The position numbers and the translations under genes were made by a program. This document shows, in pieces, positions 5,179 through 10,187 of a stretch of DNA of 64,000 nt (the first letter of the stretch is position 1; every line of letters begins with the position of its first letter). The notes under the pieces were generated by a model, which searched no databases, had not been told where the DNA came from, and saw nothing but the letters and a program-made list of their open reading frames with translations. Location of the stretch: positions 1 through 64,000 of the forward strand of contig JAQTOS010000005.1 of NCBI GenBank assembly GCA_028713225.1, written 5' to 3'. The stretch comes from Candidatus Altimarinota bacterium. Its GTDB lineage: Bacteria > Patescibacteriota > Gracilibacteria > BD1-5 > UBA6164.

Positions 5179-6711
5179 ATGAAATTATTACTTTTATTTA
5201 TTACTTTTATTTTTTCTATTAATACTTCATTTTGAGATAATCTGACTTCTACAGGTCAAGTAGATAATAAAACAGAATGTACTAGAAATAAATATGATAT
5301 AATTTGAGATTTTAATACAAAAACAAATACGAATTTAATTTATAGCATTAAAAATAATTTTAATTGAGGTACTAGTGATATATCAAATGTTTCTTATATT
5401 TTGGAACAGAATTGAAAAAAGCTAAAAGAAATAAATTCAGAAAAGCTTAATATTTCATTTAGTGATGTTTGAAATGCTAAAATCATAGCTCAAATAGAAG
5501 AAAAAAATACTAGTTGTAATTATAGAATTGAAAAAAATATAACTATTTATTCAAAAATAGTAAGCTATATTTCAGATAAGGATGATTTAAATTTATCATT
5601 TAATAATGATTTCAAGAAAAATGATACTCTTTTTAATAAAATAATACTTGAAACTAAGAATGCAAGTTCTGTACAAGATGCATTTATATCTCAAACTACT
5701 CAAAATTTATATATTTTTGGTGGTTCTGATATAGTAATTATTAACACAAATAATTATTTAGAAATTTTGCAAGCTTTTGAAAAGCTTTCAACGGTATATA
5801 ATATAAATTTCCCAAACAAAAAGATTTTTATAGTTACTGATTCTAGTTTCATAGTATCAAAGAAATTACTTAGTAATTTTATAAACAGTTTAGATGTAAG
5901 TCTTTATACTTTTGCCCCTTATAATTTGTTAAATTTCTTGAATTATATATCTCTTGGAAAATCTTCAACAGATGTAATAAGTGATAAAAATTATTGAATA
6001 AATCAAATTTCATTTACAGATAATTCAAATAGTTTATTTTTCCTTACAAATTTCACGAATAAACTGATTTCACGAGGTTTTCCAATAAGTATTTTGTGAA
6101 TAATTTTTTCTCTTGCAGTAGCTGTTACTGTTATAAATTTCATAAGGCAATTTGTGGGTTTATCTATTTTTAGTTTATATTATCCATTATTTTTTGCTCT
6201 TAGTATATATTTGTTTAGTTTTCAAATGACTTTGGCACTTTTTGTTTCAGCTATTTTTTCTCAATATTTCATGAAAAGAGTTTATAAAAAAGTTCATTTT
6301 CTACTTAATGCTAAACTGTCATTATTCTTTGTTCTTTATCTTATAATAGCCATTATTATTATTTGGATGGGAAATATTTTTAATCTTTTTGATTTTAATG
6401 ATTTGAAATCAAATTTGGTTGTTTTCCCATTTATTGTAATTCCAATGTTTACTTATAAAATATTTTCAGATGAAAGAAATATCTTTTCTTTAGCTTTTTC
6501 TCTTTATTTACTTGAATTTTGATTTGTTTCTTTGATGGCTTATCTAACATTAAAATCAAATTTTATACAAAATATTTTCTTGTCTTATACAGAACTTTTG
6601 ATTCTAGTTTTTTTCATAAATTTGATGATTTGAAAATTTACCTGAATGCAATTTGTAGAATATATTCGTTTCTTACCACTTATTAAGAAACATTTTCAAG
6701 AAGAAGAATAA
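5179..6711 (+). CDS. Probable inactive-transglutaminase/7-TM membrane protein
   Basis: 510 residues: a signal peptide (1-19), an extracytoplasmic domain (about 20-300), then seven hydrophobic helices (about 302-500) and a short charged tail. This plan, with an ATP-grasp ligase gene immediately downstream, matches the family of inactive transglutaminase-like domains fused to seven helices (Pfam families Transglut_i_TM and 7TM_transglut) encoded beside RimK-related ligases in proteobacteria. I see no Cys-His-Asp triad, as expected for an inactive domain. Family assignment rests on topology and context, since sequence motifs are weak. It ends 21 bp before the ligase-peptidase fusion, so the two are almost certainly co-transcribed. 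Confidence 0.65.
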
Positions 6712-6732
6712 TAAATCCTAAAATTAAAAATT

Positions 6733-9060
6733 ATGTTTGATTTTTGAATACTTTCTATGAATGAAAGAAATCTAAATTATATAAAAAAACTAAATTCATC
6801 ATCGTCTGTAAATTTGGCAGATGATAAAGTTGAAACTAAATTATTTTTGGAACAAAGATGAGTTTCAGTTCCTAAAACTTTAGCTATAGTATCTAGCAAA
6901 AAACAATTGTGAGAGTTTAATCTTGAATCTATAAAAGAGGATTTTTTTGTCGTAAAACCGGTTTTTTGAAGTAAATGACAGGGTATATTGATAGTGGAAA
7001 ATTTGCATGATTGAACTTATATGATATGAGAAGAAATACTTAGTGAAGACTTTTTGTATGATCATATGACAGATATTTTGAACTGAGATTTTTCGCTTAA
7101 TTATGGTTTTGATAAGGTTTTGATAGAAGAAAAACTTATTCCTGGAAACTGATTTGAAAAATTTTGTGAATTTTGATTAGCTGATATAAGAATGATTGTT
7201 TATAATCTTGTTCCAGTTGCTGCGATGGTAAGAATGCCAACTTCTAGTTCATGAGGAAAAGCAAATTTAGCTCAAGGTTGAATTGGACTTGGTATAGAAG
7301 TTTGATCTGGAATAATAAATACAATTTATATTAATTGAAAAGTTTATAAAAAAGATTTTCCTTTAAAATATGCTCATTTGAAGTGATTTGAAATTCCTTT
7401 TTGGAATGATATAATGTTAGCTTCATCAAAAACTCAATTTTTTGTAAATCTAGGTTATCTTGCTTTAGATTGGGTTATAACTAAATCATGACCTAAAATA
7501 CTTGAAATAAATGCTAGAGCAGGTTTAGAAATACAAAATGTTTGTTTACTACCATTAAAAAGCAGATTGGATAAAGTAAAAGACTTGAAAATACTTGAAC
7601 CTGAAAAATGAGTAGAATTAGCAAAATCTTTGTTTTCAGACAAAATTAGAGATAAATTTTCTACGCAAAAAGTGATTTATCTTTCTCAAGATGCAAAATT
7701 AAAATTTTGAGATTCTAGTGAAGATATTATTGTTAAAGTAGATTTTACTAAAACAAAAAATACTATTTCTTCTCATCTGTATGATATAATCTCTAAAAAT
7801 AATTATTTACTAGAATTGGATTCTAATATAAAACTTGAAAACCTTAAATTTCAAGTTGATAATGTTTTGGATGATGAACTAATAATTTTATGAACAAATT
7901 CAATAAAAGATTTTTTGATTAAACCTGAAATAAAAGAGAATAAAAAAGATATTTTTATGCCTAGAAAAGTTAATAAGAATGAATTATCACTTTTGAGAGC
8001 ATTAGATGAAAAAGTAGTAAAACTAGATAAAAAAATAAGTCTTTCACGAGCCTTGAAACCTACAAATTTTTTGGAACAATTTGATAAATTTGTAGAAATG
8101 CAATGAAAATATAATCCTATTTTTACATATGAGTTCCCTGCGTGAGAAAAAATAGAATTACTTGAAAGGGAAGTATTATTTTTAAGAGATACTTATTTCA
8201 AAAAAGGATTAGAATTAAAGTCTGAATTTGCTAGAATTTTTTCAGAAAAATTAGATGAAATTTCTAATAGATTGAATTTAATAAAGGCTTACAAATTACA
8301 AAATTTTGAAGATATAGCTAAATTTAATACAAGACTTTTTAAGCCTTTTGATGAAAATCTTATAAAAAAAGCAGAAACAAAATTATTATCTTTAGCAAAT
8401 GAAAATGTTTTAGGTGAACAAGTTGATGTAAATAATGTGATTCAGTATATAAAAGATTATTTAGATAAAAATTCTCTATCTTCGGGTGTAAAAGTTGTAC
8501 TTTCTTCGACTAATATGTCTAGAATATCAGTAAATAGAAAAAAATGAAAAGTTGAAATCAGAGTTTCATCTGACTGAGTTTTTAGAGAAAAAGAGATTGA
8601 TTGAATAATAGCACATGAAATAGGAATTCATTTAATAAGATCTATTAATTGAAAAAAATCCGGTTGGAATATACTGGAATCAGGAACTGCAAATTATATA
8701 GAAACTGAAGAATGATTAGCTGTTTATAATAGTTTGGAATATTTTCCAGATGCTTATGAAAAAAATGCAATGTATCAAAATTATTATATGTTGAATTTAG
8801 CTAAGAAATTAGATTTCCAAGAATTAGCAGATGTTTGATTTCACTTAAAATGAAATGATTACCAAAAAGTTTTTAAAACAATTTCAAGATTCAAAAAATG
8901 AATAACTGATACTTCTGTTAAACATCCATGAGCTTTATTCTCAAAAGACAAAGTTTATCTTGATTGATTCACACAAGTAAGAAAATGGATTGAAAAGGGC
9001 TGAGATATAGAAAAACTTATGATATGAAAAATTAAAATAGAAGATTTAGATTTGATTTAA
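6733..9060 (+). CDS. ATP-grasp ligase fused to DUF1704/MATCAP-type metallopeptidase
   Basis: 775-residue two-domain protein. Residues 1 to about 310 form an ATP-grasp ligase of the RimK-related 'alpha-L-glutamate ligase-like' group, with KPVFGSKGQG near residue 75, EEKLIPG near 130, and a C-terminal metal/ATP site LEINARAGLE near 255. Residues about 430-775 match DUF1704 (QEGLA-motif proteins, homologous to the tyrosine carboxypeptidase MATCAP): HEIGIH at 628-633 is the zinc site, and ETEEGLAVY at 657-665 supplies the distal glutamate. The middle is a helical linker. Family knowledge suggests one half adds an amino acid to a peptide or protein end and the other removes one. No signal peptide is present, so it acts in the cytoplasm, with the upstream 7-TM protein as likely partner. 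The target is unknown. Confidence 0.85.
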
Positions 9061-9139: not shown

Positions 9140-9652
9140 ATGGAAATTTTATCAAATTTAAAAAAGTGAATAATTCAAGGAATCTGAATTATTCTAGTTC
9201 TAATCCTTTCATGAGCAACATATGCAGCCTGGACTGCTTTATCAACAGAAACTGATTGATGAACCCTTACTTCAACAAAATGGAACGCGGTAATAAATAG
9301 ATTAAATTCAATAGATCAAAAAAGTCTAGCAACAGCTTGGGTGAATTTTGATGGTACAGTATGTACATTATGAACTTGAAATGATTGTAATATAAGATCT
9401 AGTTTTAATATAAGTAGAGTTAGAAAAATTACTACCTGACAATATGAAGTATTCTTTGCTAATCCAGTCGATAATATAAATTATTCTTTAGCATCTATTA
9501 CGTCTTATAATACTGATGCTACTGCTTATATTTCATCAGAAGATAAAAGGTTATGAGCAAGAAGTGTTAACTCATTTTTTATATGAGCCTGGACTTCTGC
9601 TTATGCAGATTCTAGAGATATTCAAATTCAAGTATTTTGATGAAAAAATTAA
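9140..9652 (+). CDS. Secreted tail-fibre-tip-like protein, copy 1
   Basis: 170 residues. An N-terminal hydrophobic segment (about 10-26) ending GATYAAW looks like a signal peptide. Next comes a module ALSTETDGGTLTSTKWNAV, then a beta-rich C-terminal domain. The pattern AWVNFDGTVC...IRSSFNISRV...YEVFFANP...QIQVFGG resembles the receptor-binding C-terminal domain common in phage tail fibres. Eight or more glycines are TGA. It is followed 22 bp later by a paralogue of identical length. It is probably a surface or pilus-associated binding protein; this is inferred from similarity of form only. Confidence 0.7.
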
Positions 9653-9674: not shown

Positions 9675-10187
9675 ATGTTAAAACAAACAATAAAAAAATG
9701 AATAATATTCTGATTATCAGCGTGATTAACTATGCTCATAATATGAGCAACATATGCAGCTTGGACTGCTTTATCAACAGAAACTGATTGATGAACCCTT
9801 ACATCAACAAAATGGAATGCAGTAATAAATAGATTGAATTCAATAGATCAAAGACAATTAGCAACAGCTTGGATAAATTTTAACTGAGTAAATTGTAGCT
9901 CTTGAGCCTGAGCAAATGAGTGTATTATAAATTCTTCATATAATGTTTCTAAAGTTATAAGATTATGAGTGTGAAGATATGAAGTACAATTTCTATCTCC
10001 TATGGACAATTCAAATTATTCAATATCGGCATCAAATATTGCATCTACAATAGCGTACTATGCATCATTTTTTGTTAGTGATGGCACTGTTAATACTACT
10101 AATGCATTTAGATTACAAGCTAGAAATGTTAATTCATCACTATATGATCAAGATTCTGTAAATATTCAAGTATTCTGAGGAAAATAA
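9675..10187 (+). CDS. Secreted tail-fibre-tip-like protein, copy 2
   Basis: 170 residues and a clear tandem paralogue of the preceding gene: residues about 24-65 (GATYAAWTALSTETDGGTL and onward) are almost identical, and both end QIQVFGGK/NIQVFGGK. The middle has diverged: copy 2 has CSSGAGANEC where copy 1 has CTLGTGNDC. Conserved stem with variable tip suggests diversification of a binding surface after duplication. Same signal peptide and presumed location. A strong terminator follows, making the pair a unit. Confidence 0.7.

Follow-up and report, generated by a model that had tools for sequence, protein, structure and literature searches.

We describe a two-gene system in a 64,000-nucleotide stretch of DNA (hereafter the window) from Candidatus Altimarinota bacterium (assembly GCA_028713225.1, contig JAQTOS010000005.1, positions 1 to 64,000), in which a putative modifying enzyme adjoins a seven-transmembrane (7-TM) protein. 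The first gene (5179..6711, + strand) encodes P0001, an RloB-like 7-TM membrane protein of 510 amino acids (aa) that is recognized by its PF14402 match and was modelled with a predicted local distance difference test (pLDDT) score of 84. The second gene (6733..9060, + strand) encodes P0002, a 775-aa fusion of a ligase, a dead retropepsin domain and a MATCAP peptidase, as read from its frame, Pfam matches, alignment and structure model. The two lie on the same strand with a 21-base gap, as rloB-rloC-like neighbours. In our judgement the chances are about even that they form a variant of the Rlo and Rim systems, in which one chain both lengthens and shortens the C-terminal glutamate tail of the 7-TM partner, the former by its ligase and the latter by its MATCAP domain.

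Under the mechanism we infer, the cytoplasmic ATP-grasp domain of P0002 would lengthen the -EE(E) tail of its 7-TM partner by at least one residue, most probably alpha-linked glutamate, and the MATCAP domain, acting as a zinc carboxypeptidase, would shorten it again. The dead central domain would serve as a scaffold or activator for the ligase. How long the tail is would in turn determine the state of the 7-TM protein, whose ectodomain would lie outside. Among characterized enzymes, RimK adds glutamate to C-terminal tails, and RimB removes these residues and stimulates RimK (PMC11957791). In Pseudomonas, RloA cleaves poly-glutamate, and deletion of rloB or rloC rescues the defects that result from loss of the RloA proteases (PMC12239564). 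Loss of a 7-TM inactive transglutaminase raised vesicle output in another bacterium (PMC12096838). The human MATCAPs are carboxypeptidases that act on acidic tails as deglutamylases, and tails with an altered penultimate glutamate are not processed (PMC10499314).

The fusion protein and its membrane partner

The source genome reads TGA as glycine, such that the region is broken with translation table 11 and yields the expected long frames with table 25. Under table 25, positions 6733-9060 comprise 775 open codons with 33 in-frame TGA, and the frame is unbroken between the two enzyme halves. An assembly or stop-codon artefact is ruled out by homologues elsewhere in the phylum: standard-code genomes from this class, and a few others besides, carry the fusion as a single frame of ~770-850 aa with no internal stops. 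The fusion is present in 34 of 60 related genomes (split over two contigs in one, and cut or interrupted in a few), and fused frames occur in 30+ genomes beyond the window's own. A scan of named genomes located it in Gracilibacteria, Absconditabacteria (on the complete SR1 chromosome CP006913), Peregrinibacteria and Peribacteria. In genomes beyond these (other members of the candidate phyla radiation, CPR; Gammaproteobacteria; Cyanobacteria; and others), the same scan found the ligase portion next to a PF14402-type protein. No viral relatives of the system were found. Judged by these comparisons, the fusion is real and old.

The presence of an ATP-grasp ligase and a DUF1704/MATCAP peptidase in one 775-aa chain, which had been proposed from the sequence, is borne out by profiles above cut-off for both. 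The ligase domain (residues 1-300; 6733..7632, + strand) matches ATPgrasp_ST (PF14397) at residues 12-283 with an E-value of 5.5e-47 and 160.7 bits against a cut-off of 31.4. Its best NCBIfam match is TIGR02291 (RimK-related ligase) at 195.8 bits, which is under the equivalog cut-off of 314.2. Residues K75, D246, E258, N260 and R262 are invariant in the aligned proteins, and from knowledge of the fold we take these to be the metal and ATP residues. The ligase half of the model superposes on RimK (5zct) with a Z of 17.6, in line with a RimK/RloC-type enzyme, and also on LysX/ArgX and cyanophycin synthetase (Z 17-18 across these and RimK). The top Foldseek matches of the P0002 model include RimK and its complex with RpsF, and no signal peptide was seen in P0002.

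The MATCAP domain (residues 438-775; 8044..9057, + strand) matches PF08014, formerly DUF1704, at residues 452-775 with an E-value of 4.9e-23 and 82.1 bits against a cut-off of 27, and its best NCBIfam match, TIGR02421 (QEGLA), falls below the equivalog cut-off. The zinc site expected for this family is where it had been placed, with HEIGIH as the HExxxH motif at residues 628-633 (8614..8631, + strand) and the third zinc ligand in E660-G661 of the EEG motif (EEGLA; 8710..8715, + strand). Residues H628, E629, H633, E660 and G661 are invariant in both alignments (28 of 28 and 32 of 32 sequences), and the HExxxH, EEG and ATP-grasp residues remain so at 30-74% overall identity among aligned homologues. 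In the full-length model, the MATCAP half superposes on human MATCAP (7z5g) with a Z of 25.4 and a root-mean-square deviation of 2.4 Å over 269 residues. The domain is thereby assigned by profile, zinc site and fold, and its predicted activity would be that of a carboxypeptidase on acidic tails. The model resolves three domains (pLDDT 88) with a predicted template modelling score of 0.53, and the mutual placement of these domains is therefore unsure.

The upstream protein had been described as a 7-TM inactive transglutaminase, of which the first part holds and the second was not confirmed. The 7TM_transglut profile (PF14402) matches P0001 at residues 308-501 with 34.9 bits against a cut-off of 25, and seven membrane helices are modelled at residues 303-487 (6085..6639, + strand). 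No transglutaminase model in Pfam matched P0001, whether the whole protein or the ectodomain alone was searched, and the ectodomain searched alone matched no Pfam family at all. A transglutaminase domain was rejected on these grounds, and the model instead places a PKD-like domain (residues ~35-125; 5281..5553, + strand; VIA-align Z 11.6 to 4aqo and 11.5 to 2y72) ahead of an alpha/beta domain (residues ~126-280; 5554..6018, + strand) that resembles the lobes of ionotropic glutamate receptor chains weakly (Z ~9). Both extracytoplasmic domains follow a signal-peptide-like N-terminus (residues 1-19; 5179..5235, + strand) that is suggested by the sequence and by a hydrophobic helix at residues 2-14 of the model. 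The C-terminal tail, ...EYIRFLPLIKKHFQEEE (6640..6708, + strand), is predicted from the charge distribution in 23 aligned sequences to be cytoplasmic, and thus on the fusion's side of the membrane.

The functional link between the fusion and the 7-TM protein that had been proposed from their adjacency is supported by more than adjacency. Among the 60 related genomes, 36 have at least one of the two genes and 33 of these have both (Fisher p 2e-13, uncorrected for kinship), and the co-occurrence extends to genomes in which the genes are on different contigs or far apart. In the window's own family (G002, G009-G015, G027, G028, G034 and others), the two genes are mostly unlinked. These unlinked fusions share only ~32% identity with that of the window, which is nearer (~40%) to fusions from other families of the order. 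Gene transfer is a possible reason for this closer relationship outside the family.

A degenerate aspartic peptidase between the two enzymes

The domain inventory of the original prediction was correct for the ligase and the peptidase and missed a third domain between them (residues ~312-402; 7666..7938, + strand). These ~90 residues of P0002 have no Pfam match, including to PF05618. However, CPR ligases without MATCAP carry a domain at the same place that has the retropepsin catalytic motif DTGA or DSGA, and PF05618 (the RimB/RloA family) recognizes the central domain only in such intact relatives, for example L184 and L157. A profile of the intact domain scores more than 10 bits on 42 of 54 degenerate domains and on 0 of 1080 shuffled controls, with intermediates that reach up to 75.6 bits. 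At the catalytic D-T/S-G position P0002 reads VDFTKT, and hence the motif is not kept. Both DTGA and the flap are gone in nearly all MATCAP-fused proteins, and in a separate lineage with an adjacent but unfused MATCAP the catalytic Asp has become Asn (L170, L174, L175, L176 and L188). Other variants in the alignment include KTDTGA in L157 and DTGV, DTGI and DTGE forms among L202-L211. A retropepsin fold is absent among the PDB matches listed for the whole P0002 model, which are taken up by the two larger domains. By alignment with its relatives, the central domain is descended from a RimB/RloA-type aspartic peptidase whose active site has since been lost.

DTGA is kept where MATCAP is absent and lost in nearly all proteins where MATCAP is fused, which argues that one eraser replaced another and that the dead domain was retained. 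The fusion is not a simple join of two ordinarily separate genes, as had been supposed, since CPR relatives already carry the ligase fused to a RimB/RloA-type aspartic peptidase domain that is here degenerate, with MATCAP in its place. The dead domain has probably been kept as a scaffold or ligase activator, and the stimulation of RimK by RimB (PMC11957791) offers a possible reason for its retention.

Five CPR genomes (L155, L156, L157, L158 and L172) combine an intact DTGA ligase-retropepsin with an adjacent MATCAP and have 7-TM tails without -EE, which might represent an intermediate stage or another use of MATCAP. In two others (L183:2411-5176 and L193:3212-5779), the ligase-retropepsin proteins continue for several hundred residues past the retropepsin domain, to a total of 856-922 aa.

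The Glu-Glu end of the 7-TM partner

The C-terminus of P0001 is Glu-Glu-Glu (6700..6708, + strand), which the comparison of tails among fused systems marks as a candidate modification site. An -EE end is present on the 7-TM proteins of 64 among 66 distinct MATCAP-fused systems and of 0 among 67 systems without MATCAP, the gammaproteobacterial and cyanobacterial cases read included. (Gammaproteobacterial tails were read from the named-genome scan, given that a plasmid search for canonical RloB gave only 3 weak records.) Among the distinct 12-residue tails of fused systems, the last residue is glutamate in 65 of 65 and the penultimate one in 63 of 65. This corresponds to entropies of 0.0 and 0.23 bits at positions -1 and -2, compared with 2.4-3.7 bits over the remaining tail. 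The length of the tail also varies widely while its last two residues are nearly invariant. Such a combination of nearly invariant ends with variable preceding residues and length would be expected if it is the free C-terminus that gets read. An effect of composition was rejected because only 7 of ~1300 further proteins encoded at these loci have an -EE end (~0.5% background).

Where MATCAP is a separate adjacent gene and the retropepsin is dead, the partner ends in -EE in all five systems. Of six systems whose MATCAP gene is either close by in the opposite orientation or more distant, one (L202) has a poly-Glu tail. The 7-TM protein of that genome (L202:4196-4891) ends in EEEEEEEREEE, and its ligase carries DTGE with the opposite-strand MATCAP nearby. 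The proposal that a writer and an eraser of one terminal mark work together is plausible, with conserved catalytic residues in both domains and, in the -EE end of the 7-TM protein, a candidate target.

Several observations weigh against the proposed mechanism and the history on which it draws. An adjacent MATCAP with an intact DTGA motif is accompanied by an -EE tail in 0 of 5 genomes, and two partner tails depart from the pattern, namely -NE in L209, where MATCAP is fused, and -QE in L225. The human enzymes TMCP1-2 rejected one longer glutamate run, -EEEY (PMC10499314), so their specificity is not directly transferable. With the intact-domain profile, the central domain of P0002 itself reaches no more than 9.7 bits, and the case for its descent therefore rests on alignment with intermediates; in addition, a few fused proteins retain DTG or DSG relics (L060, L226, L230 and L235). 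The association between MATCAP and -EE has few independent origins, about three on the tree. An independent-pairs test of this association was not significant and is under-powered, and an approximately unbiased (AU) test that joined the window's clade with the f51 group did not firmly reject this grouping (p 0.078). The Fisher p of 3e-36 for MATCAP versus -EE treats relatives as independent and is not a measure of strength. The tree itself was built on the ligase, where the window falls within a single clade of 89 rows and L209/L213 and the f51/f140 group lie elsewhere. With a more careful tree method, the window's clade, the L209/L213 group and the f51 group were each recovered as a supported clade, and joining the window's clade with L209/L213 was rejected by the AU test (p 0.0072). 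From these comparisons, the association of the -EE tail with MATCAP is strong in kind and rests on about three origins.

An unlikely though credible alternative is that the ligase makes free poly-alpha-glutamate that the 7-TM protein exports or senses, with MATCAP limiting its length and the -EE end serving only to dock the enzyme to the membrane protein, for instance by binding in the MATCAP cleft as a product-like ligand. RimK does make free poly-alpha-L-glutamate, with stimulation by RimB (PMC11957791), and because Pseudomonas RloA is secreted whereas RloC is cytoplasmic, some product may cross the membrane in a system for which no protein substrate is known (PMC12239564). The confinement of -EE to systems with MATCAP, and not the retropepsin version, is also what a MATCAP docking motif would give. 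However, in CPR either type of peptidase is part of the same chain as the cytoplasmic ligase, which leaves no evident eraser outside the cell, and no transport motif turned up in the 7-TM protein, although none was specifically tested for.

It is improbable, in our estimate, that another cytoplasmic protein is the target, with the 7-TM protein upstream of the ligase as the sensor that turns it on and off. RimK acts on RpsF (PMC11957791), and the PKD-like and alpha/beta ectodomain could sense. Yet this arrangement leaves the near-invariant -EE of the 7-TM protein unexplained, and ribosomal protein S6, the usual RimK target, is an unlikely candidate because none of the S6 tails read from these genomes ends in -EE (they end in -EK, -EA, -ED, -DA and similar). 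We consider it very improbable that -EE is peculiar to certain lineages of the 7-TM protein, unrelated to MATCAP and inherited in a few clades, since the small number of origins, the non-significant independent-pairs test and the AU result for the f51 group (p 0.078), which speak for this, are opposed by the near-zero entropy of the last two residues in tails of widely varying length, by the same -EE end in the f51/f140 lineage with its separate MATCAP, and by the rejected cross-clade grouping.

With the tail of the 7-TM protein as the target, the data would fit a broader interpretation that we hold tentatively, at somewhat short of even odds. The system might be a self-contained bacterial code on the tail of a membrane protein, similar to the tubulin code, in which one enzyme both lengthens and shortens an encoded Glu-Glu tail and in which MATCAP replaced a retroviral-type aspartic peptidase more than once.

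Relation to known systems

The closest known system, which the original prediction did not name, is the RloA-RloB-RloC operon of Pseudomonas aeruginosa (PMC12239564). Here too a PF14402-type 7-TM protein adjoins a cytoplasmic RimK-like ATP-grasp protein and a peptidase is expected to act on poly-glutamate, and gammaproteobacterial and cyanobacterial loci with the 7-TM and ATP-grasp pair were recovered by the same query. However, the Rlo eraser is a separate secreted aspartic retropepsin, whereas in the window the putative eraser is a zinc peptidase that shares a cytoplasmic chain with the ligase, and the retropepsin is dead. Likewise, RloB has an inactive transglutaminase ectodomain, whereas P0001 has PKD-like and alpha/beta domains and an -EE tail. 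By inspection of the open reading frames over 3.6-13 kb, no separate secreted rloA gene was seen in the neighbourhood. In the absence of both the secreted retropepsin and the transglutaminase ectodomain, we regard the window's system as a variant, and not a member, of Rlo.

The joining of a writer and an eraser of C-terminal glutamate in one chain is already known from RimBK, a hybrid of RimK and RimB (PMC11957791), and the ligase half of P0002 models on RimK. RimBK differs in having an active N-terminal retropepsin and acting on RpsF, and it lacks both a 7-TM partner and a MATCAP. Human MATCAP, or TMCP1-2, shares the peptidase fold and the HExxxH/EEG site, and it cuts acidic tails that ATP-grasp-type ligases of the TTL/TTLL group extend (PMC10499314; 7z5g). 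That system is eukaryotic, consists of separate proteins and targets tubulin, in contrast to the bacterial single chain of the window. CPR ligase-retropepsin fusions with DTGA, such as L184 and L158, have the same ligase, central domain and 7-TM neighbour, but their central domain looks active, they mostly lack MATCAP and their 7-TM tail does not end in -EE. What is new here is the MATCAP eraser, the dead retropepsin in between and the -EE tail of the partner, although earlier comparative studies may already have described related architectures.

In Pseudomonas, Rlo has effects on resistance to antibiotics, on the formation of biofilms and on osmotic tolerance, and its substrate is unknown (PMC12239564). 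The comparative evidence offers a defined candidate for an Rlo-type substrate, the 7-TM C-terminus, at least in the MATCAP version. In these tiny uncultured bacteria, the near-constant -EE end of the partner is of the kind on which such enzymes act, which makes it a concrete candidate target. If this is true, a membrane protein would join the very short list of bacterial C-terminally glutamylated proteins, and a role would be suggested for the bacterial MATCAP peptidases, relatives of the eukaryotic enzymes of tubulin tails. The replacement of an aspartic peptidase by a zinc peptidase at one place, with the partner's tail changing along with it, would also provide an unusual natural experiment in the co-evolution of enzyme and substrate.

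Directly downstream of the fusion, the window encodes tandem 170-aa paralogues (9140-9652 and 9675-10187) that have an N-terminal hydrophobic segment, a near-identical 'AAWTALSTETDGGTLTSTKWNAVINRLNSIDQ' stretch and no Pfam match. One locus of the window's family (L233:5859-9482, in G016) holds a canonical-looking set instead, with an RloB-like protein that has a long acidic N-terminal region and the tail -ISE, a stand-alone RloC-like ligase and a separate retropepsin (PF05618, E-value 4e-13) with a membrane-anchor-like N-terminus. Extra short ATP-grasp genes follow the ligase in tandem in some CPR genomes (L159:245-5654, L168:2284-5737 and L177:5619-10034). Elsewhere in the window's own genome (L004:7676-12534, on G000:C16), a MATCAP gene (PF08014, E-value 3e-27), an ATP-grasp gene, an N-formylglutamate amidohydrolase gene (PF05013, E-value 3e-30) and a second, divergent MATCAP gene stand in a row and may be another writer-eraser set.

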